Positions 42,266-64,000 of a stretch of 64,000 nt of DNA are shown piece by piece; within the stretch, counting starts at the first letter, position 1, and the number at the start of each line of letters is the position of its first letter. The translations under genes were made by a program, and so were the position numbers. Origin of the DNA: Pseudomonas hydrolytica. GTDB taxonomy: Bacteria; Pseudomonadota; Gammaproteobacteria; Pseudomonadales; Pseudomonadaceae. Under the pieces are notes generated by a model that saw only the letters and a list, made by a program, of their open reading frames with translations, searched no databases and had not been told where the DNA came from. The DNA lies in assembly GCF_021495345.1 (NCBI RefSeq), contig NZ_CP099397.1, forward strand, positions 4,030,001 through 4,094,000, read 5' to 3'.

Positions 42266-45200
42266 TTAGATCATGAGGTGTTTGCCCAAAGAAAGTTTCT
42301 TTTTATCTCCATATCCCGTGATAAAAATCCCTTCCGGAGTCTCTTGCCCCAGAAGAGTCTTCTCTCTGTTTTTGCCCTGCGCCTTAATGGCCTCACTTCT
42401 AACACTTCTTAGAAGAGGCGCGTAAGGCACCCACCTAGTGCCCTGTATCAGTTCAGTGGTTGTCCGTGCATCCATGCAAGTTTGAGCAATTATGAGACAA
42501 CGCCAGAACTCCTCGGGAGAATGTGCACCGCACATATCTTTCACCCACTTTCGTCCCCATTGATCTGCTTCGTGTGCTGCCTTTGCTTTTTTTGCAGCCT
42601 CGCCGGTAATACCGCTGTCACCCATATGGCTCTCGATAACGCCAAGTAGCTGCTCAGATTGTAGAGAGAACCCGGCAACGGTAATCGCGTATGCCTGATC
42701 AAGCGTCGATGCGCTACGCGAATGCTGTTCAACAAAAGACCTAATGAAATTCATAGCACCAAACCGCTCAGCTGCGAGTACCTCTTGGGCAAGAATCTTG
42801 TCGTTGCCACATTGAAGAAGACGATCACGCCATAGCAACTCTATTTTTTGTGACGGTGCGCTTGACCAGATCGCTTCATGCTCAAGTGTCAAATCGTCTC
42901 CACGGTCATGGGCCACAACGCCCTGAACAGCTAAAGCTCGCTGGAAAAGAGCGATAGCCCTTTCGGAGGCGATTGTCGAAGCTATGTTAGCAACGATGAG
43001 CGCGACGCCTCTTAGCCATGAAAGCTCAGTGGCGCTCGCACACTCAAAGATATCGAGCATACGAAACAAGACCGTCGGATCTGCTCGGATTAGCAAATTT
43101 ATGTCGTTAATGGTCAAGTTCTGGATAATGAGCTGAGCATCCGTATTGTTCAGCTTCTCCAAAAAAGTATTGGCGATTGCACGAAGCCGAGCTCGGTCCT
43201 TTTCGAAGCTCTCAATCCCTAGCATCCCTGAAGGCTCTTTCTGACGTGGAAATCGACTGTTGAGACGCTCTGTTTCATCGATAGAAAGTAAAGGAAACAT
43301 ACCAGAATCAACCGAGACAATAAAGTCAACAGCAGGAGGTTCAAGGCTCTGGGCTGCCCTCACTGCTCCTCGTAGACGATTTAAGAATGATTCAACCAGG
43401 GGCTTAAGCATCTCATCACCTACCCGCTCGGCAGCAATGAACCACGTTTCCGGGCTTATGCGCTTCAGTAGTGCATTATAAGGCAACTCCTTTCTGGCGG
43501 CGGCTTCCACAAGCAGGACAGAACCGAACCAACTCTCATACTTCGTAATGTCGGCTTCAAGCGCGGACCAACCACTTTGAGCATGGAAATCTCTAAGCTT
43601 CTTGAGGTTGTACTCAATTGTCATTTCAAAAGAAAGCGCCCGAATCACTGATGACTCTGATCTTTCGCAGCAAAGTAAAAGAGACTCTAGTTTCGGTGTG
43701 ATTGGTGTATTACCGTGGCGCGCTGCAGCCAGAGTGCCGTAAATAGCGGCATCATCATGTGTATCTAACGCCGCCTGCAATACATTGCAAATTGCTTCAG
43801 CCGGCTGCGGCTTTAGGCTGGGAATAATTTTGAGAAGGTAGTCTGTCCCGAATGCAGGGTCAGTCATACAATCAAGTTGCTCTGATGATATGAGCTGGGG
43901 TGCGGCATAGCAGAATAGGCACATCCGCATAAAATCTCGCTCCCTCTCTGGGAGCTCTTCAAAAATGTCAGCACCAACTTCGGTCACTCTTGAAACTACC
44001 CGAAGTGCTAAGTCGCGGGTCATCAAAGGGGAAAACCTGGTGCCATTTAAGATCAATTGACGAAGTGGAAATGCAGCCCTAGTGAGCAGCCCAGATAGAA
44101 TTTCACGTGCTTTGTCGGTAGCAATTCTTGGCTCAAACCGGCATACCACTGGGAGCAACTCTCGTAGATCGTAGTCTTCCGAGCTTTGCCCCATCGACAG
44201 CATGACCTTTTCGGGACTAATAGCGCGAAAAAGCTCTAAGCCCGCATTCATATCTGTTGGCTTGTTAGCGCCAGGATTAGCTACGTGCAGTTTACGCCAC
44301 CCATCAAGCTCAGGCCAAATCCAGTGGGGACTCTCCTTACGTAGTTTTTCTACAATGGTGCTGGCCTCTATTGCAGCTGCTTCATCTCCAGTTGCATAGA
44401 GCATGCGTACAACCGTCCATTGACCAGACCTGGAGGTTTCTGGCGTTCGAAGCGGCTCAATTGCTTTGATGTACGCTGACTTAGCTGCGTCTCGATCTAC
44501 GCTATTAAAAATAGTCAACTGTTGAAAAGCCTTGCGGGCGGATGCAACATCTCTATCAAGAGCAAAACCGAGGCCTAGCGCTATAAAGCTGTTTGAAAAC
44601 CCAGCAAGCGGTCGTCCAGCAAGAAGATGAATCGCAAGGGTGAAAAGATTATTCACCTCACCAGAAACCTCAGTCATCTTCTCTAACAGGGTACTTTCGA
44701 ACGGTGACAAGGTTAATAGTACGCTTTGAATTTCTCCCTGTGTCTTTTGGAGACGTTCCAAATCCTTATCATTATTTTGATTTGGGTAACGGTTCGTCTG
44801 CTCGACAGCGTCCTTGTTATAGCAATGCATCCAGCGGTGAATGAATAGCTCCGTTACTGGCCAGCCGTCATCTGAGCTGGCAATCTCAAATGCGGCATGA
44901 GTAAACCAGTCTTGGTTCAGGCGCCGCCCTCGCTCGAGGGTAATCACGCCCAGTGTTTTAAAGAACTCCGCTGGCTGGTTTTTGGAGATCTCGACAAACT
45001 CCTCGAAGCGTTGATCGCTAACGTTCTGGAGATGGGAAAATGCGTCGAGGAGTACGGAGAATATGGCTTCATCGAAACGAATCGGGTCTAGGGCGCAGAC
45101 CATCAGTGCAGCGAACATGACATCCACGGTTCGATCCATCGCATGTATTGGATCAATTAGGTGAGTCATACGCTCACTAAGGGCTAAACCAGAGCCCTGT

Positions 45201-46828
45201 GCCTTCCACAGCTGATCAATCAATGTGTAACCGAGAGCGAGAGTCAACCCTTCCATGCGGAGCTCGTATGTGTCACCTGGACCTGGAAGACTTCTAAAGA
45301 ACCGTGTTTCGATTACCGCAGTCGAGTCCACCTCAAATCTCAGCGGTGGCTCGCTTGGTGATGCTCTGACTCGCTCCAGTACTTCCTTGGCATGGTTACT
45401 GAGGCGCTTGGTTAGCTCAGATAGCGTCTCTGGTTCGAAGTTTTCTCGCTGCGAAGCCCGAAGGTGCTCCATGAGAATCCTGTCGGGAGTGAGACCTTTC
45501 CATGCAGTAGAACTATGATGAGGCAGGGTCGCTACCGCAACCCCAAGTAGGCGGGGGTTGAGAAGAGTTTCTAACGTAGCCTCATCAAGCCAATCAAGGC
45601 TGATGCCGTAATGGCCTAGCAATTGGTCGCGCTCATCCGGCGACCACACCGGCACATCAATTAACTTAGGTCGGAAGGCCAATCCGGGAGCAACGATCTT
45701 ATGCCAAAACTGGGGCCGTACAGAGACGATTAAGCGTCCACCAATAGCCTGTAGCCGCTCCTGTAAACTGTTGAGAATTCTATCCCACCGCAATCTGTCT
45801 CGTTGGTTTATGCCATCGACAATGACAAGCACAGGAGATGAGGGGGGCTGGCTCTTCCAAGCAACAAGCCGGTGGCGCCATCTACGGCGGACTGCCTCAT
45901 CAGACATACCACCGGTCTGTTGGATCAAGAGTTCAATGAGACTCTTGTCGAGTTCATTGGGCGCAATGCCCTCAAACTGCTCCGCGCTCGCAAAGATAGC
46001 TAGCCCCTCATGGTCACAGCAAATTTGCGCAGCAAGCCACGATTTGCCATGCCCCTCTCCCCCAGAAAGAATGACGCTCTGACCGCATTGCAAATACTCT
46101 TTCACCTGATTCCGCTGGGTTGCACGCAATGGCAGAAGCGTTGGTTGGGCGGTCACTGCAAGTGCCTGCCCCAAACGCTCCCTGGCAGTGTGCCCGGAGC
46201 TGAAAGAGCTTCTTCTCCACTCCTTGTTCGCCTCAGTTGAGCGCGCAGTAGCCAGGGTCGAAACGTTCAAGTCCGACCGGAGCTTCTGCAGCAGACAGCC
46301 AAACTCGGGGTGCTCCGATATTTCTTTGATCGATTTAGCGAGCTCGTGACGGTCAGGCTGGGGAACGCAATGCGTTAGCATAAAATCTATCGCAGACTCA
46401 CCAGCGGCAGCGGTAGCGACAGCCAAAAGTGGTATGGGTTCAGCAGTCCAATCGAGTATCAGGGTCGAGATCGCGTTTTGATCACCGACCTCTTCCACGG
46501 CAGTCACCAATTGTGCGCCTACCTCAACTGTTGCACCAAGAATCCAAAGTCGATCAGCGGCACCGCTTTTTCGAGCAAGATCTACGATCTTTGTCAGTAC
46601 TTCATTGCGGGGAATCGTCCCTGAGTATCGCTTGGCCTCGAAACTCACGGCGTCGCCTCGCAACGCTGAGTCACCATCCATCCCCCCCTGCAAGCCACTT
46701 ACAGCTAGCCGAAAAGGAATGCCCGTCAAGCGAGTAAGAACAACTCTAAGGAACCCCTCAAAACCATCGGCACCTGCAGCTTTGAGAGCCCAAAGGGTGC
46801 TCTTAAGATTTGTTAGTGAGTCACTCAT
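42266..46828 (-). CDS. Avs-like STAND NTPase with N-terminal PD-(D/E)xK nuclease
   Basis: This 1520-residue protein starts at ATG 46828 (MSDSLTNLKSTL, GAGG upstream). Residues 1-110 form a Mrr-like nuclease: GGMD (D51) and E64-A-K66 in VSFEAKRY. A P-loop GGEGHGKSW (K262) and a Walker B VLVIVDGINQ follow, the layout of STAND/NACHT NTPases. The C-terminal 1000 residues are helical repeats without a clear hit. This is the plan of Avs anti-phage proteins (nuclease effector, STAND switch, C-terminal sensor). The 80-base gap to the HNH gene leaves co-transcription with the Septu pair open. Base composition is AT-richer than the core. Confidence 0.75.
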   Translation of the reverse strand: MSDSLTNLKSTLWALKAAGADGFEGFLRVVLTRLTGIPFRLAVSGLQGGMDGDSALRGDAVSFEAKRYSGTIPRNEVLTKIVDLARKSGAADRLWILGATVEVGAQLVTAVEEVGDQNAISTLILDWTAEPIPLLAVATAAAGESAIDFMLTHCVPQPDRHELAKSIKEISEHPEFGCLLQKLRSDLNVSTLATARSTEANKEWRRSSFSSGHTARERLGQALAVTAQPTLLPLRATQRNQVKEYLQCGQSVILSGGEGHGKSWLAAQICCDHEGLAIFASAEQFEGIAPNELDKSLIELLIQQTGGMSDEAVRRRWRHRLVAWKSQPPSSPVLVIVDGINQRDRLRWDRILNSLQERLQAIGGRLIVSVRPQFWHKIVAPGLAFRPKLIDVPVWSPDERDQLLGHYGISLDWLDEATLETLLNPRLLGVAVATLPHHSSTAWKGLTPDRILMEHLRASQRENFEPETLSELTKRLSNHAKEVLERVRASPSEPPLRFEVDSTAVIETRFFRSLPGPGDTYELRMEGLTLALGYTLIDQLWKAQGSGLALSERMTHLIDPIHAMDRTVDVMFAALMVCALDPIRFDEAIFSVLLDAFSHLQNVSDQRFEEFVEISKNQPAEFFKTLGVITLERGRRLNQDWFTHAAFEIASSDDGWPVTELFIHRWMHCYNKDAVEQTNRYPNQNNDKDLERLQKTQGEIQSVLLTLSPFESTLLEKMTEVSGEVNNLFTLAIHLLAGRPLAGFSNSFIALGLGFALDRDVASARKAFQQLTIFNSVDRDAAKSAYIKAIEPLRTPETSRSGQWTVVRMLYATGDEAAAIEASTIVEKLRKESPHWIWPELDGWRKLHVANPGANKPTDMNAGLELFRAISPEKVMLSMGQSSEDYDLRELLPVVCRFEPRIATDKAREILSGLLTRAAFPLRQLILNGTRFSPLMTRDLALRVVSRVTEVGADIFEELPERERDFMRMCLFCYAAPQLISSEQLDCMTDPAFGTDYLLKIIPSLKPQPAEAICNVLQAALDTHDDAAIYGTLAAARHGNTPITPKLESLLLCCERSESSVIRALSFEMTIEYNLKKLRDFHAQSGWSALEADITKYESWFGSVLLVEAAARKELPYNALLKRISPETWFIAAERVGDEMLKPLVESFLNRLRGAVRAAQSLEPPAVDFIVSVDSGMFPLLSIDETERLNSRFPRQKEPSGMLGIESFEKDRARLRAIANTFLEKLNNTDAQLIIQNLTINDINLLIRADPTVLFRMLDIFECASATELSWLRGVALIVANIASTIASERAIALFQRALAVQGVVAHDRGDDLTLEHEAIWSSAPSQKIELLWRDRLLQCGNDKILAQEVLAAERFGAMNFIRSFVEQHSRSASTLDQAYAITVAGFSLQSEQLLGVIESHMGDSGITGEAAKKAKAAHEADQWGRKWVKDMCGAHSPEEFWRCLIIAQTCMDARTTTELIQGTRWVPYAPLLRSVRSEAIKAQGKNREKTLLGQETPEGIFITGYGDKKKLSLGKHLMI

Positions 46829-46909
46829 CACGTCCTCGGCATAGTTAAATCTAGCCTTTGAAACCTTCAGATCCCGCACGACATGCCCTGCTAAGGACGC
46901 CCAGAGCGC

Positions 46910-47638
46910 TTAAACTTCGTCCTTTAGTGCGCCTAATATTTCCCTCGCCGGTTGAAAGTTGTGTTCATCTACCAACCCATTAAGAACCTCTAGGTACTTG
47001 ATTTTCCATCCGCGACTTTTTACCCGAAATAGCCCCTCAAGTGCTTGCTGAACAGTTTTGTGATCAGCCGGAAGGAAGTAGTCAGCTAGACGGGCGGCGT
47101 TTAGATAATGAATTCCGCATACTTCTATCGTTTTTGCGCCCTTCATGCTTTCGTTGGCAGGAACAATTCGGCTTATCTCGTCGTGCCTGAAGTGATCACT
47201 CCACTCATCTAAGTGAGGATGAACAATTGTATAGTCGCTAGACTGTCTCGGCACTTCCGCTAGCGTCACGTTCAGCGCGAGTACTAGCTTATTTTTCTTC
47301 ACCCCATTGCACGTTCTGCAAGCCACCGACAGATTTGCTAACTCAAACATGAACTGAGGGAACTCATCTTTGTGAATGATGTGTTCGGCATCGTAGGCGG
47401 CTTTGCTTTCATCGAGCTCTTTGCTGCAATAGCAGCATCTACGTGCTTGTCTCCCCCAGTAGTAATCTTTTACCTCGGTCCTGAAGGCAGCTACTAACGG
47501 CGCATGGGCCTCATCATCAGTACTCCAAAACTTATTATCTGCAGCACCAAGCTGCTTGAGTTTTAAATGATCTTCTTGGCTGACGCTATTTAATACCGTC
47601 AGAACTTCCGCTTTTCGCCGACTCAATGGATGAAGCAC
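46910..47638 (-). CDS. HNH endonuclease, PtuB-like (Septu)
   Basis: This 242-residue protein starts at GTG 47638, one base after the PtuA stop (TAA-A-GTG) with GGAGG upstream; a TTG seven codons earlier lacks a site. The HNH core has C68-x2-C71, the D-A-E-H (E85 H86) and C107-x2-C110-N111. The HNH lies in the first half, with a helical C-terminal part. Paired with an ABC-type ATPase directly upstream it matches the Septu (PtuA-PtuB) layout. Confidence 0.8.
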   Translation of the reverse strand: MLHPLSRRKAEVLTVLNSVSQEDHLKLKQLGAADNKFWSTDDEAHAPLVAAFRTEVKDYYWGRQARRCCYCSKELDESKAAYDAEHIIHKDEFPQFMFELANLSVACRTCNGVKKNKLVLALNVTLAEVPRQSSDYTIVHPHLDEWSDHFRHDEISRIVPANESMKGAKTIEVCGIHYLNAARLADYFLPADHKTVQQALEGLFRVKSRGWKIKYLEVLNGLVDEHNFQPAREILGALKDEV

Positions 47639-47639
47639 T

Positions 47640-49025
47640 TTATCTTCCCTCCGACTCAAGGAGGTCTATGGCCTGGCGAATAAGGCGAAGTGTCTTACTG
47701 CTATCTATTGGCGAATTGGAATAAATATTTGCTAACCGCTGTAGCTCTTGACGAGAGTTTATTTTTTCTCTTTCTCCACCCTCCTCGGCTTTAGTAACTG
47801 CGGAAAATATCTGATTGGCTAGATATACGCTGTCGGATACGGGAGTATCGAATACGTTCAGGAGCGCTCCTTCTACGGATGTAGATGGTGCTGGAACAAT
47901 GTGATCATCCGTTCCGAGCTGAATCACACCGACACCAGACTGCAGACCGCGCTGCACAACTAGTGGTGAGTGTGTCGCAACCAAAACATGGCAGCCTCTG
48001 AAAGGCTCAAGAGCTGCATGCAAGTTGTCAAGATACATCTGTTGCCACTGAGGGTGAAGGCTAAGCTCCGGTTCATCAATGAGGACGAGCGTGTCATTTT
48101 CTAAAGAGGACGCCAATTCCATGATGGAGCAAATCATTTGCTGCTGACCTGAACTTGCTTGAACTACGTCAAAGCTATAACCGTTAACGCTTGTCAAGTC
48201 GCATGAAACCAATCTCAACATACCAAGTTGACGAAGTAGAGATAGAGCTTGAATGATTGCGTAGTCATAGGTGCTTTTCCTACTGCGGGATCCAAATTCA
48301 GCCTGATAGTGCCGATCTCCTACTTGCAGATCACCAAGAACATTGAAAGCGACTGCCAGAAGCTCGGAAAGCTGTATTGGATCAGATCTATCGAGTTCTC
48401 TTCGCAGAGGGGAGAAAGTGCCGTAGGGCGTTAGGAAATCAAGCTCGTTGAGAATGGCACCTGCTCCTCCAGATCTATTGGCGAGAATCAGCCTATCTAT
48501 TTGTCTTTCCAGCTTGTAAATAAGGACAAATTTATCTTCAAACCCTATGTTTTGCATTACCCTGGCGATCAATGCGGCGCACTCAGGTGATTCACTGAGA
48601 TTGAAGATTGACTCCTCTAGCGCACGCTTTGATACATCATTTATATTGGGCCGACGAGTGCGCCATAAGCCAAGACAGGTGTAATACTTCCCGCGGCGAT
48701 TTCCTTCGGCGTAAACGCTTGTGAGAGAGCTCCTGGCGACGTCGGAGATCGATGGAGGGAAGCGTGAAAATGGACTGTACGTTTGCGCGATAATTTTACT
48801 GGGGGGAGCATTATCCTTTAGATATATGTGTATATCATTAGGAGCCTGCCCTCTGCGCTGCGAGGAAAACACCTTCCCGCTGAACTCTTCAGCTAAAATA
48901 CTCAGAGCTCGTGTTTTCCCCGATCCATTGGGGCCAGTTAACAAGTCAACTTTATTGGCGCTATATTTATTGCTACTTGGGAAGGCGATTTTTTGCCCAT
49001 TGATTGAAAGACCAAATATTTCCAT
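47640..49025 (-). CDS. ABC/SMC-like ATPase, PtuA-like (Septu)
   Basis: This 461-residue protein has Walker A GPNGSGKT (residues 31-38), a signature-like SSGQQQMI and a Walker B LVLIDEPELSLHPQW near residue 315, followed by a H-loop VLVATHSP. This is the overcoming-lysogenization/AAA_21-type arrangement used by PtuA. PtuA senses and gates its HNH nuclease partner. The HNH gene follows with its start one base past this stop, so the pair is co-translated. Confidence 0.82.
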   Translation of the reverse strand: MEIFGLSINGQKIAFPSSNKYSANKVDLLTGPNGSGKTRALSILAEEFSGKVFSSQRRGQAPNDIHIYLKDNAPPSKIIAQTYSPFSRFPPSISDVARSSLTSVYAEGNRRGKYYTCLGLWRTRRPNINDVSKRALEESIFNLSESPECAALIARVMQNIGFEDKFVLIYKLERQIDRLILANRSGGAGAILNELDFLTPYGTFSPLRRELDRSDPIQLSELLAVAFNVLGDLQVGDRHYQAEFGSRSRKSTYDYAIIQALSLLRQLGMLRLVSCDLTSVNGYSFDVVQASSGQQQMICSIMELASSLENDTLVLIDEPELSLHPQWQQMYLDNLHAALEPFRGCHVLVATHSPLVVQRGLQSGVGVIQLGTDDHIVPAPSTSVEGALLNVFDTPVSDSVYLANQIFSAVTKAEEGGEREKINSRQELQRLANIYSNSPIDSSKTLRLIRQAIDLLESEGR

Positions 49026-53198: not shown

Positions 53199-54331
53199 AT
53201 GAAGGACCCGCTCTGGATCTGGCAGCTGCCCGACTGGCCACACTTCAGTTGGCAAGCCAAAGCACTTGCCTCGTTGCTGCGCGCTTGCAGTCGGGCTCAG
53301 GGGCGGTGTTGATAATGATCGGTGCTGTGGAGAGTGACACAGAGGTGCAGAGTAACCCGGATGCCATGCTGCAGAACATCGTCACCTCTTCGGCCATTGA
53401 GGGAGAGAGCAGTTGAATGTCAGCTCGCGCGACGCCTGGGGCTGCACTAAGAAGGCCGCCCCACGTCCCGCTTCGAAGACCTGGCAGAACTGCTGCTCGA
53501 TGCCATCCGAGCGCACCAACAGTGGTTAGACGAACTGCGACTATTTACCTGGCACTGCTGGCTATTCCCAGCGATGACCAACTGCTGGCTAGACCGAATA
53601 CATCGGCGCACTGCGTGGCGAAGAGCCCATGCAGGTCGTTTCCGGTCGAGTCGACCAACCGACCGTACATTTCGAAGCCCCTCCCCGCGCAGGACTGGAA
53701 GCGCAATTGGCGGACTTTATCGCCTAGCTCGAAAGCAGCCGCAAAGATGCTAGCCTTGATCCCTTTCTGCGTGCCGGCATCGCTCATTTCCGGTTCGTCA
53801 CCCTGCACCCATTCGGTGATGGGAACGGCCGCTTGACGCGCGCCATCACCGATCTGGCATTGGCCCAGGGTGAGCAGCAAGCCATCCGCTTCTACGACAT
53901 GTCCGCGAGCATCCTCGATGACCGCGCCGGTTACTACCGCATTCTCGAAGCCAGTCAGAAAGGCGGACTGCATATCACCAGCTGGCTGCAGTGGTTTCTC
54001 GCAACCTTACTCAACAGCCTGGAGCAGCCCCTCGCTCGTATCGACCGCGCTAGTCAAGGCGCGCGTCTGGCAGGCACACAGCAGACAAACACTATCAGCA
54101 GAGCAGGACAAAGTGCTTAAACACTTGCTCGATGGCGGCAAACGGGGTTTTGAGAATGGTATCAGCGCGGCGCAATATCAGGCGGTAGCGAAGGTATCCA
54201 AAGCCACCGCCACCCGCCACCTGAGTGACCTGCTGGAAAAGGGTTGTATCGAGCGACTACCCGGTGGCGGGCGCATCCTCCGTTATCAACGAGTCGGACT
54301 CATCAGCCCTTGTTGCGTCATCGCGCCATAG
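53199..54331 (+). pseudogene. Broken Fic-family protein (AMP-transferase type) with C-terminal wHTH
   Basis: The first frame starts at ATG 53199 (MKDPLWIWQLPDWPHFSWQ), the N-terminus of DUF4172-type Fic proteins. The frame shifts near 53305 (to ...NIVTSSAIEGES) and again after 53417, and a Trp codon becomes TAG near 53727. The Fic motif HPFGDGNGRL is intact near 53810, and a winged-helix tail (VAKVSKATATRHLSDLLEKG) ends near 54280. At least three frameshifts and stops; it is not functional. Confidence 0.8.
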
Positions 54332-54661: not shown

Positions 54662-54831
54662 GCAAGGAGGAAAAAAATCTATCCACATTACACTCCTCAT
54701 GCTTCTGAATGCGTTGTTGGAACTAGATCTTGCTAGGCCGCCTGCGGGCAAAAACTCTTCATCTAGGAGGACTGCCATCCTCTGCGATTATGAACAATTA
54801 GCGAAAATGCTTGCGACAGCTCGGAGGTTGC

Positions 54832-57800
54832 GTGGACGTATATGACATCAACGAAGTCTTAGACAAGGCCCCATTACACGATGTGGCCCGGTCTCTCGGC
54901 ATGGTGTTGGAGCAGCGGGGAGCGACCTTAAAGACTGTTTGTCCATTTCATCAAGACAGTAAGCCCTCGCTCAATCTATTCCCAGCGGATGCTCAAGGAC
55001 CAGCCCACTTCCACTGCTTTGCATGTGGAGCGCATGGCTTTGCAATTGATCTTGTAAAACAAGTACAAGGCACTGAATTCCTCCCGGCTGTTCAATGGCT
55101 GGCGAAAACGTTCGGAATCCAGAGCAAGCGGCAGAACGTGACTGGCCGTGCCACTGAGAAGAGTTTGACAGAGCACGCGCTTGCATTTGCTCAGAAAGCC
55201 TTCAATAAGCATCACGATTCGGTGCGATTCAAAGCATGGTGTATTGAGCGCTCCTTTGATCCTGAGTTCCTTTATCGAGAGGGCCTGCGATGCATCACCC
55301 AATCGGTATTGGTTTCAGAGCTGGACACGATGTCGCATGGTCCCCGTCTAGAAATAGTGGATGGGTTGCTGTCACTTGGCCTTCTGGTACGACTGCGTAA
55401 GCCCACCAATTCAAGCCAACTAAAGTTGACTCTCCCAGATCAGTTTCGGGATTACTTCCACGATGGAAGAGTCCTCATCCCCATTCGAAGCGGTCAAGGA
55501 GTCACATCAAAAATTGAAGGGTATGCAGGTCGAAGCCTTGAAGCAGTGCCAGCCGAAGGTGTCGCCAAATACCTCCTTAGTCCAGGTTTGCGCAAGGCAG
55601 ACCAATTGTTTAATGCACATCAAGCACTCCCAGCGACAACTAAGGAGCTCAAAGCTGGTCAAGCCACCACTCTCTACATAGTTGAGGGGTTCCTTGACGC
55701 ATTGCGCTTTCAGTCTTTGGGACTGCATGCGGTTGCACTCATGGGAACCTCCCTCAGCGACCCTCAGTTTGAACAGCTTAAACAGCTAGCGGAGAACCTT
55801 CCCACAGGGCAGGCGCAAGCTGAATTCGACGTTGTCATCATGATGGACAATGACCGAGCTGGTCTTACTGGGGCAGATCGGTTGGTGCGCCGCCTATTGG
55901 GCTGGCGTGGAGCGAGATTACGCTGGGTGGGATTCGATCAAAATGCAGTAAATAGTTTGGGTAAGGATCCAGACACCTGCCTCCAGAAGCAAACATCAGG
56001 AGCATCTGCCAAAGAGCTATTGGATAAATACACCTTGCCTGCGGTTGCAGTGCTGCTGGTGGCGGAACTCGAATGCACCGATGCGACCGAGCTACAAGGC
56101 GAAAGCTGGACAGCGATGACCTTTTCCCGGAAAGAACGTGCCTTGTTCCGGGTTGCGCGAAGTATTCGTCAACTGGCCGGACGTCAGTCCTTACATCAGC
56201 TGGAAGCATGGCTTGATGCCCATTTAAAAGGACATGCAGGAACATGGTGGCAAGATCTCCATGACCTTTTGCTAGATCAAGGGAATGCGAGAGAGAGATT
56301 TAAGGCATCCGAAGTATTCCTGAACGGTCAGGCAGAACGCCTGCGCCAAGCACGAGTGCTCGCGTATCACGGTGCACGACGCGGAGAGTTGCCTTGCGAC
56401 GAAGAAGCCTGGCTTACGCTAGACGTCAGCGCGAGGCTATTTGACCAATTAGTAACCGAACGCTTGTGGCAGCAACGTTGGGAATCAGCAGGTCTCTATG
56501 ATGCAGTGCATTTACCGCGCAAGCTAAGCGCGGATACCAAAATGCTGGATGACCCACGCCTAAAGGTCATGCCTCATCCAGCCGACCTGCATTTGCAACA
56601 GGTTCTGCTAAACGAGCTATTAACCCAGCGGCACGATCAATTGACCGCTGCAGGCAAGATGTTTTCGGAGTACGTCCCGGCGGTACGCTGGTACTCTTCC
56701 CAGCAAAAAGTTGAGGTCACTGGACACGAAGACGAACTCGTAGCTCTGGAGGGGGAGGTGCCTGCTCTCAGCTTCGGTTACCAAGTAGACATGGATGTCT
56801 TAGAAGGTCGGCGCCCTCCTTCCGATCAAGGCATGTTCAGGCCTTATGGACAGTGCTGGCGTGCGTTTATGGAGTCGCTGCACAAACAGAGCAACGCCAT
56901 TGGCAATCGCGTACATGTCTTACGCTTAGATGCGAAGCGGTATTACGACTCAATCCAACGCTATGTCGTGCGAGATGCACTACTAAACCCTGTCAAACAG
57001 GCCCTGATTGGAAACGGTACAGATTTCTTTCATACGCTGCTGGCTAGGCCGCAGACGGAAAGCCCCGAGTTAGTTGCCGAACACTTGGTAGATAGGCTGT
57101 GCGACAGCTTGTTTACCTACAGCTACCCAGATCCAGACTCTGGCGAAACCAAGTTTAGCCAAGAATCGATTGGCATACCCCAGGGGCCAGTTATATCGGC
57201 ATACATCGGCACGATCGCGCTGTTTCCAGTGGACTTGGCAGCACGCCGACTCATGCGCAAACATGTTCGCCAAGAGTCAAATCAGAGCGTCCAGCCTCGC
57301 CTAGGTTATGCCCGCTACGTCGACGACATTGTCTTGCTCTCCGATAGCGAGGAACTGTTGAGCGAACTGCGCCATACACTACAGGTAGCAGCGTCCAAAC
57401 TCGACATCACCTTGTTGCTGAAGGGTGACTCAATTGAATCCGGCACACCCGAAGAAGTTATGCAGCAACTGAACGAGGGGCGTGGGTTCGCTGCATCTTT
57501 GCCCGCCTGGGAGCCCCCATTGGTTGGGGACGGCGAATATGGATGGGGCCTTGGTGGCGACTTTCCGCAAACAGATCGCCAATGCGCTCTACGCCTACTT
57601 CGCCATCCGGGCTTGATGGATAACCCCTCAAAAATTCACGAAAAGATCAAGGAGGCAATATTGGCCCCTGATCTGAGGCCGACTGATCTTGGGCTTTGTG
57701 CGCGATGGATCTGGTGGGAGGTAGCAACTGAACTAACCGATCGAGATGCCACCCCAACGAAAATATGGGAGCGATATTGGCATCTATGGCGTTATGTTTG

Positions 57801-60800
57801 TGGAGAACATGATTGGACGTCCGAATTTGAAGCCAGAGGCTATGACTGGCTGTATGCAGTTGAAGGGCTGGACAAACTCCTTGCCCCGAACCCATGGATG
57901 GAGAACGATCAATCCCAGAGTCAGGTTCCAAAAAATCGCGCAACTCTAGTGGTACTGGCAAATGTCGTGGGTACTACGAACTTCTTCGATAAGTTGCCAT
58001 TGCACGTGGTAAATCATATTCACGTGCGCCATCGCTCGCGACTGGTAACGATGAAGGCTCGAAGGCTGGCACGACCGCAAGAAATGCCGCCTGCGTCCCC
58101 CCCTCAAGAGTCTCGCCAGCTGACTCAAATCGAATGGCTTTGTTTTGCTGCGGAGCAGCTTCGCGAACCCCACGCAAATAGCCATCCGATTAACCCCTTG
58201 GCAAAGAGACAACCTGTAGGACGCGGGAGTTCAGTTGCCCAGCAAATTTGCAATCTACTGCTGCCGGATCAAGGCCAAGACACGTCAGGAGATTTAGACA
58301 AGGCCCGAGATCTTGCCTTGGACATGGTTATTCGCAACGTACAGAGCATTAGGCTAAACGAAGTTATCAGGCATTTTGGACACCTACTGACAATTAACGG
58401 CGAAACAGACCCCATCACTATTTTGCCCAGCCTGCCGCTCAGCGCTCAGGACGCATTTTGGGGCTACTCGGGGCATCCCGAAAAATACTGGTTATATCGA
58501 TTCTCAAGAGGTACCCCAAAGAACCAAGCGAGTTTTTTTTGCGTGGAGCTTGCTGAGGAAGGGAAACCTGCTTCGATGCAGCAAACTCAGGAGCTAGAAC
58601 ACAAAAAACTAAATGAACTGCTCACTCGCAGCACTACTAGCGAAACCGTTCCGTGGAGAACATTCGACGCCGGTCAAATGAACCGTACCCGTAGAACGCA
58701 TCTCGCCGCGAATCTATTTATATCTCTCCTAGCACTGCAACGACAAAGCGAGAGTCCAGATGGGAATGTTGCTGTACCGGTAGTGCAGCATCTATTTGTA
58801 AGCACTGAGCAAAACGAACGGAAGAAACTGCACTTGCTAGCGGACCTTGTGCCACACGATGAGCTTGGTGTTAGCGCTTGGCATGGTGATTCAGACGGAC
58901 GCCTGCGTGTGGTCAATGTGCCTCATACCGGCGCAGACTTCTGGCGCGTTGGCTGGGCGGTAGCAGACGCACTTGGGTTAGCCGAAGATATGGCAGGCGA
59001 AACTGGTGTGCGGGATGAGACCCTCGGCGATACTAGGACCTCTGTTGAGCACTACGTTTTGCGACAGCAACTGAGGAAGCTACAGGGCGTCTATCTCTCA
59101 GAGTCCCAGATATGGTCCAAAGATCAAGACGGCATACCAAACACGATAAAGCGCGCTCTGGACTTACTTCTCTCATTTGACTCGAAGGCGTCACCAGCCC
59201 AACAGACTAAACAATTATTCGAAATGGAAGCCGAAACTCGTGCCATGGCACTGAGGCTCCAGCAGTTCGGAGTGGGGATCCGCCGCCAGCTGCACGAAAT
59301 ACCATTACGCGTACTAAATCGCCTGCCCTTATGGGCCTTGCAAGACCTCCGCCTATGCAAACAGGAGCCAGATTTGCGTCCAGACCTGGCTCTGATGCTA
59401 GCTCTAGCCTCTGCCATCGATTGCAAAAACGCATCGCCCACCGAGCAGGCCCAGGGAGCGGCGCACGCTTTGAGAGCGTCGCTAGCTCTGTCCGCTTCAG
59501 CCGTAGGATTGAGGGGATGCGTCGCCTCGTTGTGGGGATTATCACGAGAGAAAGGCGCGCGACGCATGCCGGATAGGCTACCAATTCCCGCGGGCTGGAA
59601 TCCTCCTGATGCGGTTCACCATGATCCTCAACCCGACTACACCGCGATACGCAAATGGTTAAATGACGGCGATTGGGCAGCCCTAACAATCGCCAGCCCG
59701 TGGCATTGGATGTTGGCGCTATTAGGCGTACTAGAAGGTACCTGCCCGCAGGCTTTTGACTTAGTGCCTTTGCAAAAAGTCTATTCGGTGCTCTTGGCCT
59801 GGCAGAGCGACCCTGCAACTGTAGGAGAGCAGGCCATATGGCCATATGACGGCCTGCCTGCACTATCGACAGAGAGCTGGACCGAGCTGCTCGAGGCCTT
59901 ACCTGTTGCGGTGAACAAGTTGGACGATCTGTTGGGCGTCCAAGTTGTGGGTGCCACAGCGCCTCAATATCGTCGCAACCCTCACACTGATGATTTCACA
60001 GATGCCCTCAGTGAGGAGTGGTCGCTCAGCAAACCGCAATATACCGGTATAGGTGCTGCAGACCGGGTGGCACGGGTCCGTAGCGGTGCTCGCAACCTGA
60101 GCGCATGGAGCGAAGTGCGAAGGAAAGGAGATAATGAGCTTCTATCCGTTCATACCCTGGATCGAAAGCTGGGCGATTGGTACGGAATGGCTACCCCTGC
60201 TGGCGAAGTCGATGAAAAGCTTGATGTACCATCTGCTACTACAGCTACGGCTGAGAACACAACTTTCCCCCGACCTGCTCCTGAAGCGCAGATAGATCCT
60301 ATTGTGGGCCACCCGGAGCCAAATAGAAAACTCGACTCAGCTCAAAACAATTCTGCCGAAAATATTTCTAGGGATAGTGAGACCAGCGATTCTGACTCAA
60401 ACTATTTCGATCGCGAGTTCCGGGAATCACAGAGAGCCTCTTGGAAAAGGCGTGGCAAGGCCAAGTCATGCGCGCAAATGCGAGTAGCGCTTTTTCAATG
60501 GAAGATAGTTGATACTTACTCCCACCCTCTTGCAGAGGCGGGCTTATCTGGGCTCGATCTGCCCCGTTGGGTAAACGATGAAATCGAAGAGAAATGTGTC
60601 GGTGATTTCAAAGAGTTGAGTGAGGCGTCCAAACAAGGCCAGGAGTCCAAGTGGAAGGAACAGCGGCTTGTTGAAAGTTGGCCAGAGCATCGACGAAGGG
60701 CCCTGCTAAAGAAAGCTCTGGAAGCTTGTACCGATCTAGGCGTTGAGCTCCTCGTTCTCCCAGAAGTATCAGTTCGAGCCGATACGGTGGAGTGGTTAAG

Positions 60801-62184
60801 GGACAAGGCATTAGCCAACCATAAGAATCTCTGGGTCTTGGCTGGCACTTATAGAAGATTCGAGCCAAACAACTCAGATAAACACCTAATGGAACCACTC
60901 ACTCTGCTGTGGCACCCATCAGAGGCCATGGCACAAAAACTTGGACTGGACGAAGTAAAAACTTTCGAATTTTCCAGAGGAAAAAAGTATCGCGCAGTCG
61001 CGGCAAAGGAATTCTTCCAACCACAGTGGGACCCACTAAAACCGCTCTACTCCAAAGAGCGGATGCTTGAAGAAGTCCTCAAGGATCAAGGATGGGCCAA
61101 CCTAGATAAAAAAACACCAGTGGACCTAAAGGCACTCTTGACCGCACTTGATGAAAAATCTCCTGCAATGCAGTACTGCATGGAGCTAATTTGCTCGGAG
61201 CTGTTTTTAATGACCAGCCCCGCCAATATTCGACCACTCCAAAACGAAGTTTTGGCTCTAATGGAGCGTTTCCCCAATACGCGCCCCGACAAAGCAAGCG
61301 AAATAGTTTGGGAGGACTTCAAGGCTTTAGGCGAATTACTCGACGTTGCCCAGCTTGATCGCCCCAGACGCTCCGTGCTCCTGGTTCCAGCTGCTACGTC
61401 TCGGACTAATGACTACTGGCATGCTGGTCAAGCAAGCGTACTAGCGTCTGGCACAGCAACAGTATTCTGCAATGCGGTTTTGGATAAAGCATTTGTAGGC
61501 GGGAGTTGCTTCATTGGTATTGATGCAGTTTCGCAAGCGACGAGACACGTGGGACAAGTAGGTGCTTTAACCCCCTACCATGGCTGGCATAAAGGTATCT
61601 ATTTGGGGCGTGCGTCCGACGCGCTTTCGACAGCAGACCAAGCATTAGTTGTGGTGGATCTAGACCCTATTCACGTCGTCAGCGGAAAACCACGTCCACA
61701 GTTACTAGCCGAACCAATGTCGATGGTGGCTTACCTACCTGTGGTAGAAGTGCTGGATCGAGACAAAAACAGCCATGGACTAGCACAATTATTGAGCGAG
61801 ACAGTGGATAGCAACTTTCGCGACCGGCTTGATGAACTCATGCGCTATGCCAGCCAGCGAACCAAGAACAATCCGGATCAATTCTTCGCTGCTCTCAGAA
61901 AATTGTTCGCCCGAAGAAATAGTCCGCTCCTAGACGTAGAGGATCTTGAGAATTTCTCAAGACTTTTCTCTGATGATTACGCCGTACGCGAGCGTCTGAT
62001 TGCATGGCAAAATGACCGTCACCAACAACCAGCTCCATTGTCATACCCTTTGGGTCTAGAGCCTGCATGGCTTGATTACCTAATCACAGATTTAACGGTA
62101 GGCGGTGAGTTGGCCAATGTGACTGTCCCGTCCTGGACCTCCGAAGATGCCGGTCACCCGGGAAATATGACGCCCGAGCTATAA
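54832..62184 (+). CDS. Giant primase (CHC2-TOPRIM)-reverse transcriptase-nitrilase fusion
   Basis: One uninterrupted 2450-residue frame from GTG 54832, preceded by GGAGG. Order: CHC2 zinc finger C37-x2-H40...C62-x2-C65; a TOPRIM domain with E285 in VEGFLD and D339-x-D341 in MMDNDRAG; a helical linker. The reverse transcriptase (about 640-900) has D700 in RLDAKRYYDS, GIPQGP from G781 and YVDD (D831, D832). A long helical region follows (about 900-1870, acidic Ser/Asp-rich at the end), then a nitrilase-like domain from about residue 1883 with E1978 in LPEV and C2121 in ICSEL. RT plus C-terminal nitrilase is the layout of UG1-type defence RTs (DRT type 1); a DnaG-like primase half in the same chain is not part of the description I know. 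Base composition is AT-richer than the core. A TTG seven codons upstream is a less likely start. Confidence 0.93.
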   Translation: MDVYDINEVLDKAPLHDVARSLGMVLEQRGATLKTVCPFHQDSKPSLNLFPADAQGPAHFHCFACGAHGFAIDLVKQVQGTEFLPAVQWLAKTFGIQSKRQNVTGRATEKSLTEHALAFAQKAFNKHHDSVRFKAWCIERSFDPEFLYREGLRCITQSVLVSELDTMSHGPRLEIVDGLLSLGLLVRLRKPTNSSQLKLTLPDQFRDYFHDGRVLIPIRSGQGVTSKIEGYAGRSLEAVPAEGVAKYLLSPGLRKADQLFNAHQALPATTKELKAGQATTLYIVEGFLDALRFQSLGLHAVALMGTSLSDPQFEQLKQLAENLPTGQAQAEFDVVIMMDNDRAGLTGADRLVRRLLGWRGARLRWVGFDQNAVNSLGKDPDTCLQKQTSGASAKELLDKYTLPAVAVLLVAELECTDATELQGESWTAMTFSRKERALFRVARSIRQLAGRQSLHQLEAWLDAHLKGHAGTWWQDLHDLLLDQGNARERFKASEVFLNGQAERLRQARVLAYHGARRGELPCDEEAWLTLDVSARLFDQLVTERLWQQRWESAGLYDAVHLPRKLSADTKMLDDPRLKVMPHPADLHLQQVLLNELLTQRHDQLTAAGKMFSEYVPAVRWYSSQQKVEVTGHEDELVALEGEVPALSFGYQVDMDVLEGRRPPSDQGMFRPYGQCWRAFMESLHKQSNAIGNRVHVLRLDAKRYYDSIQRYVVRDALLNPVKQALIGNGTDFFHTLLARPQTESPELVAEHLVDRLCDSLFTYSYPDPDSGETKFSQESIGIPQGPVISAYIGTIALFPVDLAARRLMRKHVRQESNQSVQPRLGYARYVDDIVLLSDSEELLSELRHTLQVAASKLDITLLLKGDSIESGTPEEVMQQLNEGRGFAASLPAWEPPLVGDGEYGWGLGGDFPQTDRQCALRLLRHPGLMDNPSKIHEKIKEAILAPDLRPTDLGLCARWIWWEVATELTDRDATPTKIWERYWHLWRYVCGEHDWTSEFEARGYDWLYAVEGLDKLLAPNPWMENDQSQSQVPKNRATLVVLANVVGTTNFFDKLPLHVVNHIHVRHRSRLVTMKARRLARPQEMPPASPPQESRQLTQIEWLCFAAEQLREPHANSHPINPLAKRQPVGRGSSVAQQICNLLLPDQGQDTSGDLDKARDLALDMVIRNVQSIRLNEVIRHFGHLLTINGETDPITILPSLPLSAQDAFWGYSGHPEKYWLYRFSRGTPKNQASFFCVELAEEGKPASMQQTQELEHKKLNELLTRSTTSETVPWRTFDAGQMNRTRRTHLAANLFISLLALQRQSESPDGNVAVPVVQHLFVSTEQNERKKLHLLADLVPHDELGVSAWHGDSDGRLRVVNVPHTGADFWRVGWAVADALGLAEDMAGETGVRDETLGDTRTSVEHYVLRQQLRKLQGVYLSESQIWSKDQDGIPNTIKRALDLLLSFDSKASPAQQTKQLFEMEAETRAMALRLQQFGVGIRRQLHEIPLRVLNRLPLWALQDLRLCKQEPDLRPDLALMLALASAIDCKNASPTEQAQGAAHALRASLALSASAVGLRGCVASLWGLSREKGARRMPDRLPIPAGWNPPDAVHHDPQPDYTAIRKWLNDGDWAALTIASPWHWMLALLGVLEGTCPQAFDLVPLQKVYSVLLAWQSDPATVGEQAIWPYDGLPALSTESWTELLEALPVAVNKLDDLLGVQVVGATAPQYRRNPHTDDFTDALSEEWSLSKPQYTGIGAADRVARVRSGARNLSAWSEVRRKGDNELLSVHTLDRKLGDWYGMATPAGEVDEKLDVPSATTATAENTTFPRPAPEAQIDPIVGHPEPNRKLDSAQNNSAENISRDSETSDSDSNYFDREFRESQRASWKRRGKAKSCAQMRVALFQWKIVDTYSHPLAEAGLSGLDLPRWVNDEIEEKCVGDFKELSEASKQGQESKWKEQRLVESWPEHRRRALLKKALEACTDLGVELLVLPEVSVRADTVEWLRDKALANHKNLWVLAGTYRRFEPNNSDKHLMEPLTLLWHPSEAMAQKLGLDEVKTFEFSRGKKYRAVAAKEFFQPQWDPLKPLYSKERMLEEVLKDQGWANLDKKTPVDLKALLTALDEKSPAMQYCMELICSELFLMTSPANIRPLQNEVLALMERFPNTRPDKASEIVWEDFKALGELLDVAQLDRPRRSVLLVPAATSRTNDYWHAGQASVLASGTATVFCNAVLDKAFVGGSCFIGIDAVSQATRHVGQVGALTPYHGWHKGIYLGRASDALSTADQALVVVDLDPIHVVSGKPRPQLLAEPMSMVAYLPVVEVLDRDKNSHGLAQLLSETVDSNFRDRLDELMRYASQRTKNNPDQFFAALRKLFARRNSPLLDVEDLENFSRLFSDDYAVRERLIAWQNDRHQQPAPLSYPLGLEPAWLDYLITDLTVGGELANVTVPSWTSEDAGHPGNMTPEL

Positions 62185-62294: not shown

Positions 62295-62680
62295 CTACCC
62301 CATTCCCACGGACAGTTTGAAAAGGGCTGAAAACTTCAAATCTTGCCGGTCGACTCTACGACGCATTCGTGGGTTATGAAACCGCTCGATGTAGTCGAAG
62401 ATATTCGCGCGTGCTTCATCACGAGTTCGATACGACTGATGGGCAACGCGCTCCCGTTTGAGCTGACCGAAGAAGCCTTCACAGGCAGCGTTGTCGGCGC
62501 AATGCCCGACGGCACTCATGCTGCAGACTAGCGTGTTGCGATTTAGAAAGCGCTGGTAGTCAGCACTGGTGAATTGGCTACCGCGATCCAAATGCTCACT
62601 CACCAGTCACCCTGGCGTTGCCAGATCGCCATCTCCACCGCTCGAATCAACATCTGTCGATCCTGGCGGTGTTACATCGA
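62295..62680 (-). pseudogene. IS3-family transposase remnant
   Basis: On the minus strand, RQMLIRAVEMAIWQRQGDW is followed by a stop and frame slip. Then comes LDRGSQFTSADYQRFLNRNT...CEGFFGQLKRE...FHNPRMRRR, the end of an IS3/IS150-type integrase core. Only the last about 130 residues remain, and a piece is missing at the catalytic H-S-D-R-G site. No inverted repeats can be paired, so the element is immobile. It lies directly after the RT gene. Confidence 0.8.
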
Positions 62681-62848
62681 CCAAAATTGTACGCTGACGA
62701 TACAGTGCCTAGATTTTACATATTACACGCAGAGCTGTGCAGGAGCTTCAACACAGCCTGGGCCGGAAACAGTTCCTACACCAGACTACGCCACAGCAAG
62801 TTGGCTCACCTGGTATTGAAACCCACCATCTCCCCATGGAGCGTAATC

Positions 62849-63232
62849 ATGGAGATAGAGATGGATACTTCTTCGCGTACAACCGAGGTCCTCGATACCG
62901 CCTCTGATCAATCCCTACCGCTGCCGGGCACGGAAGCCTACGAGTCGCTTCCGCAGTTCCCCAAGGGCAGCCCCCTGCCCTTCCGGCGCACAATTCGCAA
63001 GCATGAGCTGAGACAGATAGTCCCTCTGGCTGAATCAACGATCTACGAAATGGAACGTCGTGGCGAGTTCCCCCGGCGCTTCAACCTGACACCACGTTGC
63101 GTGGTCTGGGATCTGGCCGAGGTGGAAGCCTGGATTGAGGAGCGCAAGCGAGCACCTCGGCTCAATATCAGCAAGCCGGATGTTTATCTAAGGAAAACCC
63201 GCCCTGTCCGGGCGGGCTCCAGCCAAGCATGA
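62849..63232 (+). CDS. AlpA-type transcriptional regulator/excisionase-like
   Basis: This 127-residue protein starts at ATG 62849 with GGAG 7 bases upstream. A disordered N-terminal part (about 1-45) precedes a winged-helix block (about 50-112): LRQIVPLAESTIYEMERRGEFPRRFNLTPRCVVWDLAEVEAWIEERKR (quoted here in parts: LRQIVPLAESTIYEMERR; FPRRFNLTPR; VVWDLAEVEAWIEERK). AlpA/Vis proteins control P4-type integrase genes and excision of islands. This supports an integrase nearby outside the window. Confidence 0.8.
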   Translation: MEIEMDTSSRTTEVLDTASDQSLPLPGTEAYESLPQFPKGSPLPFRRTIRKHELRQIVPLAESTIYEMERRGEFPRRFNLTPRCVVWDLAEVEAWIEERKRAPRLNISKPDVYLRKTRPVRAGSSQA

Positions 63233-63244
63233 AGTCTGCCGCCC

Positions 63245-63769
63245 TCATCCGACAAGGGCTTGCAGTTCCTTGGAGGCGGGGCGCGTTAGCCGCCGTTCTT
63301 CCTTGGCTAGATTGACCTGCAGGGCCACCTGAGCCACGTCCAAGACACCGCCAGGCAGCAAATAGCTGCCTTTGGCTTGCAGCCAAGTCAGCACATCCGC
63401 CAGGTGCCAGATCGAAGCACTGCCCTCATGCACCGGCGCCGGGAAACTGCTCGGATAAGCCAACATGAGCTTGCGCATGTTCTGGCGCGACACGCCGACG
63501 ATCTCCGCCACATCGGTGAGGCCGACCAGATCCGGTGCCACCTCGATCAGCCTGGCCGACGGTATGGCACTGCGCACGTCGGCCAGTGCGCTGCGCACAG
63601 CCGCTTCAGCGTTCTCCGCTTCACGGGTGAACTCCAGCGCCAGACGACCGGGCTGACCAATGCCGATCAACGCATCGTCGCAGCCGGCCTCGCCAAGGCG
63701 CTCGACCAACGCCTCCGGATCACGGTCATCGTCGGCCAGTTGGTATTTCAGTGTGAAGGTGTATTCCAT
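63245..63769 (-). CDS. HTH protein with N-terminal small domain
   Basis: This 174-residue protein starts at ATG 63769 (MEYTFTLKYQLADDDRDPE). Residues about 1-85 form a small alpha/beta domain. Residues about 90-145 (LTDVAEIVGVSRQNMRKLML) are a helix-turn-helix similar to AlpA-type DNA-binding parts. A longer in-frame start has no support. It follows the small protein at 63774 by 4 bases, so the two are co-transcribed. Confidence 0.72.
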   Translation of the reverse strand: MEYTFTLKYQLADDDRDPEALVERLGEAGCDDALIGIGQPGRLALEFTREAENAEAAVRSALADVRSAIPSARLIEVAPDLVGLTDVAEIVGVSRQNMRKLMLAYPSSFPAPVHEGSASIWHLADVLTWLQAKGSYLLPGGVLDVAQVALQVNLAKEERRLTRPASKELQALVG

Positions 63770-63773
63770 AGCG

Positions 63774-64000
63774 CTACTCCTCTGCGCCCCCAGCGGTCTG
63801 CCGCTGCTTACGGTGCGTGGTGCAGTTGTCGACGACGCGCCGAAGGGCACGCGCATGGTTGCCTGGGTTCTTCGGTGTGCTCCACACGCTGGTGATGCAG
63901 AACTCGCCGCAGCGACACTCTTCATCGTTGTAGGGACAGAAGATTCGTCCCCAAGCGTGGCTACCACCCAGCTCTATGCGCCAGCCCTGCTCTTCGGCAT
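63774..64000 (-). CDS. C-terminal part of a small protein, start outside window
   Basis: On the minus strand, the visible 75 residues read ...GWRIELGGSHAWGRIFCPY-(N-D-E-E)-CRCGEFCITSVWSTPKNPG... and end at TAG 63776. The GGSHAWG, clustered cysteines and WSTPKNPGNHARALRR layout resemble small island proteins paired with HTH genes. A HicA-like toxin is one possibility, but I cannot verify it. Confidence 0.55.
   Translation of the reverse strand, partial: AEEQGWRIELGGSHAWGRIFCPYNDEECRCGEFCITSVWSTPKNPGNHARALRRVVDNCTTHRKQRQTAGGAEE

Follow-up and report, generated by a model that had tools for sequence, protein, structure and literature searches.

We examined a window of 64,000 nucleotides (nt) of the Pseudomonas hydrolytica genome (contig NZ_CP099397.1, positions 4,030,001 to 4,094,000; coordinates below count from its first base), and find that the gene at 54832-62184 (+ strand) almost certainly belongs to group UG29 of the defence-associated reverse transcriptases (DRTs). 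Its uninterrupted frame of 2,450 codons from a GTG at 54832 encodes a single polypeptide chain, in which a DnaG-type primase, a reverse transcriptase (RT) with a predicted αRep thumb, a middle region and a predicted nitrilase follow one another. The PADLOC profile RT_UG29 (PADLOC-DB 2.0.0, PDLC03767, filed under DRT) matches residues 1-2437 over profile positions 1-2279 of 2280, at 2721 bits. The next family, RTasDnaG-like, matches the primase only (176.9 bits, best stretch 8-356), while Drt1a (34.4 bits, residues 682-842) and the UG10 profiles (23-25 bits) match the RT only; PADLOC also holds stand-alone models for an RT-associated primase (the same RTasDnaG-like) and RTasNitrilase. An earlier, sequence-only reading had presented the joining of a primase to an RT-nitrilase chain as new; a primase is indeed absent from DRT1, the known RT-nitrilase design, but the novelty was overrated, since the group is already catalogued. 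Its interpretation, in which the RT extends primase-made RNA primers and the nitrilase is a nucleotide- or signal-processing effector, finds support in part. No feature compared apparently sets the window protein apart from the profile. UG29 seems nonetheless to be uncharacterised: neither a description nor a bench test of it, nor of this domain combination, was found in the literature searched, outside which lies Mestre et al. 2022, cited for the UG/Abi groups.

The chain opens with a CHC2/DnaG zinc ribbon (residues 6-101, 54847-55134; C37, H40, C62, C65), followed by a DnaG RNA-polymerase core with TOPRIM (residues 106-482, 55147-56277; acidic E285, D289, D339, D341, D379 and D381, basic R213, R234, K246 and K255) and by the RT fingers and palm (residues 497-891, 56320-57504), with D700 of motif A at 56929-56931 and motif C, Y829-V-D-D832, at 57316-57327. 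A predicted helical αRep-like thumb comes next (residues 892-1166, 57505-58329), then a middle region with no assigned fold and a variable linker near 1790-1855 (residues 1167-1865, 58330-60426), and the predicted nitrilase-superfamily domain (residues about 1866-2291, 60427-61704), whose candidate catalytic residues are E1978 (in LLVLPE, 60763-60765), K2051 (60982-60984) and C2121 (in ELICSE, 61192-61194). The C-terminal tail (residues 2292-2450, 61705-62181), delimited on the structure model, has no assigned function and lies beyond most nitrilase matches; all these features are on the + strand, as is a putative ribosome-binding site, GGAGG as read by eye, 4 nt before the start codon (54823-54827). 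Pfam matches above cut-offs are Zn_ribbon_DnaG (6-101), Toprim_2/4 (280-356) and RVT_1 (665-860). For the middle region there was no Pfam match at E ≤ 0.5 and one chance-level PDB match (E 2.7). Comparison of the predicted model with known structures shows the RT and helical region to resemble Abi/DRT4/DRT6 polymerases, and the nitrilase fold of the C-terminal domain was revealed by structure prediction only; both this fold and the αRep thumb are predicted features.

In the primase half, all 14 of the zinc, basic and acidic residues checked are identical to those of the DnaG of the same genome in an alignment with 109 identities over 485 aligned positions. The NCBIfam dnaG model TIGR01391 scores 134.7 bits, under its cut-off of 283.6, as expected for a diverged primase core. 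In DnaG, basic residues of the core matter for primer synthesis, and a helicase-binding C-terminal part follows the RNA-polymerase core. The core of the UG29 protein ends at about residue 482 and the RT fold begins at about 497, where the genome's own DnaG continues to 663 amino acids (aa); the helicase-binding part therefore has no counterpart in the UG29 protein, and the RT stands in its place.

Relatives were sought among 5.8 billion proteins (E ≤ 1e-3), giving 190. Among the best 120, lengths range over 2,332-2,698 aa, the named sources are Pseudomonas, Xanthomonas, Stenotrophomonas, Chromobacterium and several Burkholderiales genera, and the closest protein is from Pseudomonas sp. MIL19 (95%). 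Because this search draws its words from the first 500 residues, it was repeated from the nitrilase half, giving 188 relatives, with 31 new among the best 120; with candidates held to at least 0.55 of the length, split N-terminal halves would escape the first search. Full-length homologues with primase, RT and nitrilase, which the sequence-only reading had proposed to look for, prove to be the rule: in an alignment of 152 proteins, window protein included, all six regions (zinc ribbon, TOPRIM, RT, αRep, middle, nitrilase) are present in 140; in four others the zinc ribbon is missing wholly or for the most part. Sixteen residues are invariant in all 140 complete proteins (C37, H40, C62, C65, E285, D289, D339, D341, D379, D381, D700, D831, D832, E1978, K2051 and C2121). 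This bears out the DnaG-like zinc finger, the TOPRIM domain with intact acidic residues and the RT with an intact YVDD box that had been read from the single 2,450-residue frame, as well as the nitrilase-like domain with candidate E and C, for which the fold is predicted.

Four distant relatives, with 28-33% identity in their best segments, likewise consist of a single chain. A Sphingomonas aerolata plasmid encodes one of them (2,458 aa, 28%); the other three come from genomes of the genus to which the window belongs (2,491, 2,518 and 2,519 aa; 32-33%). All four keep K2051; the neighbouring K2052 is R in the Sphingomonas protein. By comparison with the gene of P. extremorientalis, the ratio of nonsynonymous to synonymous substitution (dN/dS) is 0.110 overall, 0.072 for the primase, 0.059 for the RT, 0.165 for the middle (residues 1001-1860), the least constrained part, and 0.107 for the nitrilase; judged by these ratios, the gene is under strong purifying selection. 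It is also rare, occurring in 4 of 298 genomes of the genus, its own included; a draw across the phylum gave matches in 3 of 398 genomes, namely its own and two weak partial ones, which we discounted. One scan of genome contigs hit a single locus, that of P. extremorientalis, one scan of viral contigs gave no relative, and a phage collection yielded a single fragment among the best 15 of 29 records, the rest of which match the primase.

DRT1 (UG1, Drt1a; PDB 9YFD) and the UG5-nitrilase systems share with UG29 the order of RT, helical region and nitrilase, the RT aspartates and the E/K/C residues, and the UG29 RT profile matches 9yfd at E 0.0025. They differ in length (1,229 aa for 9yfd and 954-1,078 aa for two UG5 examples, against 2,450) and in having neither a primase nor the 700-residue middle, and their profile similarity to UG29 is weak. 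The two UG5 examples were obtained with a Drt1a profile, which matched 53 of 229 genomes, nearly all in the RT stretch only; the two with both RT and nitrilase stretches are RT_UG5-nitrilase by PADLOC. Although the UG29 protein has the predicted nitrilase fold with its E/K/C residues, Drt1a falls far behind RT_UG29 as a match over its length, which speaks against membership in DRT1. The accessible text on DRT1 describes template-free, serine-primed DNA synthesis, a need for both RT and nitrilase residues, an abortive infection, and the T4 helicase Dda as necessary but not sufficient; it gives the nitrilase substrate as still not known (PMC13275509).

A primase and an RT also meet in one defence polypeptide in DRT7/UG10. 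There the primase is AE_Prim_S_like, as opposed to the DnaG/TOPRIM type of UG29, and the portion of the UG10 report at hand describes co-occurrence with the RT, and a fusion with suggested concerted priming, and mentions no nitrilase (PMC8934634). The solved chains of the AbiK, Abi-P2, DRT4 and DRT6 polymerases (484-599 residues) are far shorter than UG29 and so have no room for a primase and a nitrilase. Retron Eco2 carries a cis-encoded msr-msd RNA; for UG29, comparison with a single relative of 84% identity shows no conserved flank past 55 bp upstream, a comparison made with no RNA-family or covariance search.

The best explanation of the whole, to which we give an even chance, is that the DnaG primase of UG29 starts DNA chains, the RT extends them, the DNA switches on the nitrilase and the infected cell is shut down. 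An antiphage role is very probable, and the nitrilase is likely to be the effector; that the primase supplies primers used by the RT we hold a little less probable than the scheme at large. Phage infection would expose single-stranded DNA, or the RT's own product would serve as template; the primase half would lay a short RNA primer on the single strand, and the adjoining RT/αRep polymerase would extend it. The DNA product may then, by analogy with DRT1, drive oligomerisation and enable the nitrilase, with abortive infection as the outcome. Should UG29 follow DRT1 closely, the DNA would serve to license the nitrilase, whose release would await a later signal from the phage. Primer hand-off is favoured because all 140 complete proteins keep the DnaG residue set, of which a mere sensor would probably have shed a part, because the RT sits where DnaG has its helicase-binding part, and because relatives as distant as 28% identity are still fused. 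In its boldest form, which we advance tentatively and consider rather doubtful, the idea is of an antiviral polymerase self-sufficient in RNA primers, in which a domesticated DnaG primase, freed from the replicative helicase, would feed an Abi-type RT, and the RNA-primed DNA would switch on the nitrilase.

The way in which defence RTs initiate DNA synthesis is under active study: in the available accounts DRT1, DRT3b and DRT9 are protein-primed, and the primer of DRT3a is given as not known. With a complete-looking DnaG-type primase, an RT and a predicted nitrilase in one gene, UG29 makes primer hand-off, product structure and effector control testable together, and a highly diverged enzyme of DRT1 design offers an independent handle on the nitrilase substrate. 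If the proposal is true, an RNA-primed start would be a further way beside protein priming and the 2'-5' branch of retrons, and sensor, DNA writer and killer would lie within one protein.

Several observations weigh against this scheme. DRT1, DRT3b and DRT7 are reported, in the text accessible to us, to be protein-primed, and the UG29 RT may therefore not need an RNA primer. The available part of the DRT1 report (PMC13275509) has DNA adducts building first tetramers and then dormant filaments ahead of infection, with no appreciable lengthening by T4; hence infection-made DNA need not be the switch. In three of the 152 proteins the zinc ribbon and at least half of the TOPRIM core are missing, and another five consist of middle and nitrilase only; in these eight, the missing parts may lie in neighbouring genes or have been lost in assembly. 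Three of the distant relatives (the L016, L017, L018 subclade) have N in place of D381, the final acidic residue of the DnaG set, and keep all other catalytic residues checked. The αRep matches score near the Z value that the comparison tool calls common for helical folds. The nitrilase domain was missed by sequence profiles and by plain Foldseek at E ≤ 0.001, and a comparison of UG29 and UG5 nitrilase profiles built from 7 and 2 sequences, respectively, was weak (probability 8.9). Larger profiles, of 156 UG29 and 119 UG5 sequences (the latter the best 120 of 1149 UG5 relatives, minus P0153), still gave no convincing match: the probability rose to 65 (E 6e-5), but only 42 columns, at the glutamate motif, were aligned, and a further 6-column match at the cysteine motif was not significant (E 0.058).

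Perhaps the DnaG part enters only later: an RT/αRep polymerase primed from its own residue would make untemplated DNA, the primase would prime the complementary strand, and the duplex would activate the nitrilase. The αRep-type RT fold and the protein-primed sister systems (for DRT7, in preprints) are in keeping with this, and the DRT7 preprints, as summarised, combine protein-primed, protein-templated synthesis by an RT plus primase-polymerase with a duplex-like poly(A)/poly(T)-rich product (PMC13213688, PMC13174585). Yet the DRT1 priming serine, S402, is described as not conserved in other class 3 DRTs, and the accessible text reports no complementary DNA for DRT1 adducts (PMC13275509). A further polymerase step would also be needed, since a DnaG-type enzyme makes RNA, and we regard this order of events as unlikely. 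We think it less likely again that the TOPRIM half is not a working primase but a single-stranded-DNA sensor or nuclease effector, as in retron-Eco2 and OLD-type systems. Retron-Eco2 is reported to join an RT to a TOPRIM effector (PMC12405507), DRT1 to depend on a phage single-stranded-DNA helicase (PMC13275509; both sources as accessible), and the D381N change is one weak hint in this direction; however, the zinc ribbon, the RNA-polymerase subdomain and the basic and six DnaG acidic residues that are kept probably go beyond what a nuclease-type TOPRIM needs.

The primase and polymerase modules, the integrase and AlpA genes nearby (below) and the plasmid location of two relatives would also suit a protein that serves the carrying mobile element in replication or transfer and has no part in defence. 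This is improbable, slightly more so than a sensor or nuclease: a nitrilase has no evident role in replication, PADLOC files UG29 under DRT, and comparison of two islands points to exchangeable cargo. These islands, in P. extremorientalis (L001; 17440-21509) and in another genome of the genus (G004, contig C25; L017, L030), are one shared satellite-like island with the UG29 gene at its end. They share an integrase (73% identical), small genes, a 962-aa DUF927 protein (97%) whose gene has a TOPRIM-like stretch, and a 285-aa gene (90%), and match at 91% DNA identity over 4 kb starting within 90 bp of the UG29 stop. The UG29 proteins in this same slot are only 32-37% identical, and because such diverged proteins fill one slot of related islands, each with its own DUF927 gene, UG29 is swappable cargo. 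That separate genes were joined by an assembly or frameshift error, a possibility raised by the sequence-only reading in case homologues were always split, has a negligible chance of being right, even with the five proteins of middle and nitrilase only; it was rejected on the fusion in 140 of 152 proteins and the four distant relatives, and on the low dN/dS in each region tested.

The surroundings of the gene agree with its mobility. Between the window and the 84% relative in P. extremorientalis, similarity runs from 55 bp before the start codon to the gene's end and no further. In a comparison of 43 neighbouring open reading frames (ORFs) from six loci (those of L004 left out; E ≤ 1e-4), only two, common to L001 and L017, match across loci; a later search added weak AlpA-type similarity (27%) in the G004 island. 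Integrase or transposase genes lie near the UG29 gene in six of seven loci, among them L016 and L004 with integrases and L018 with an IS66 transposase; the 5 kb upstream examined on the Sphingomonas plasmid (L005) holds neither. In the window, an AlpA-type regulator of the presumed carrying element follows at 62618-63232 (+; PF05930, E 5.8e-13), and a tyrosine integrase lies just beyond the window's end (64188-65384 on its scale, L029:4189-5385, - strand; PF00589, E 3.5e-21). A self-sufficient, exchangeable defence gene is the simplest reading.

We also note some further features. (i) The five proteins of middle and nitrilase only (P0123, P0129, P0134, P0137 and P0140) are 1,348-1,463 aa long, with their first residue aligned to residue 1075-1289 of the window protein; they may reflect a natural division of the protein within the αRep region or directly behind it. 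(ii) A 442-aa ORF, 45.5% identical to UG29 residues 780-1187, is found on a 2.4-kb contig deposited as cyanophage AS-1 (L015, DQ115810.1), and this record may be bacterial DNA in a phage deposit. (iii) Downstream of the AlpA gene, 63245-63967 (-) matches PADLOC PDC-M06B (282.5 bits over residues 67-239), an entry listed with candidate defence proteins. (iv) Upstream of the UG29 gene, broken frames at 53200-54330 (+) look by eye like a decayed Fic-type gene with a winged-helix tail, with a weak sub-threshold MarR match; their HPFGDGNGR motif we take to be Fic-type. (v) Some 6 kb upstream, at 42266-49025 (-), a Septu-like ptuA (47640-49025) overlaps ptuB (46910-47659), which is followed after 30 bp by an ORF of 1,537 aa with no PADLOC match and only weak AAA_16/NACHT matches (E 0.007-0.05, below cut-off). 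Perhaps these form a three-gene Septu variant with a STAND-like NTPase.
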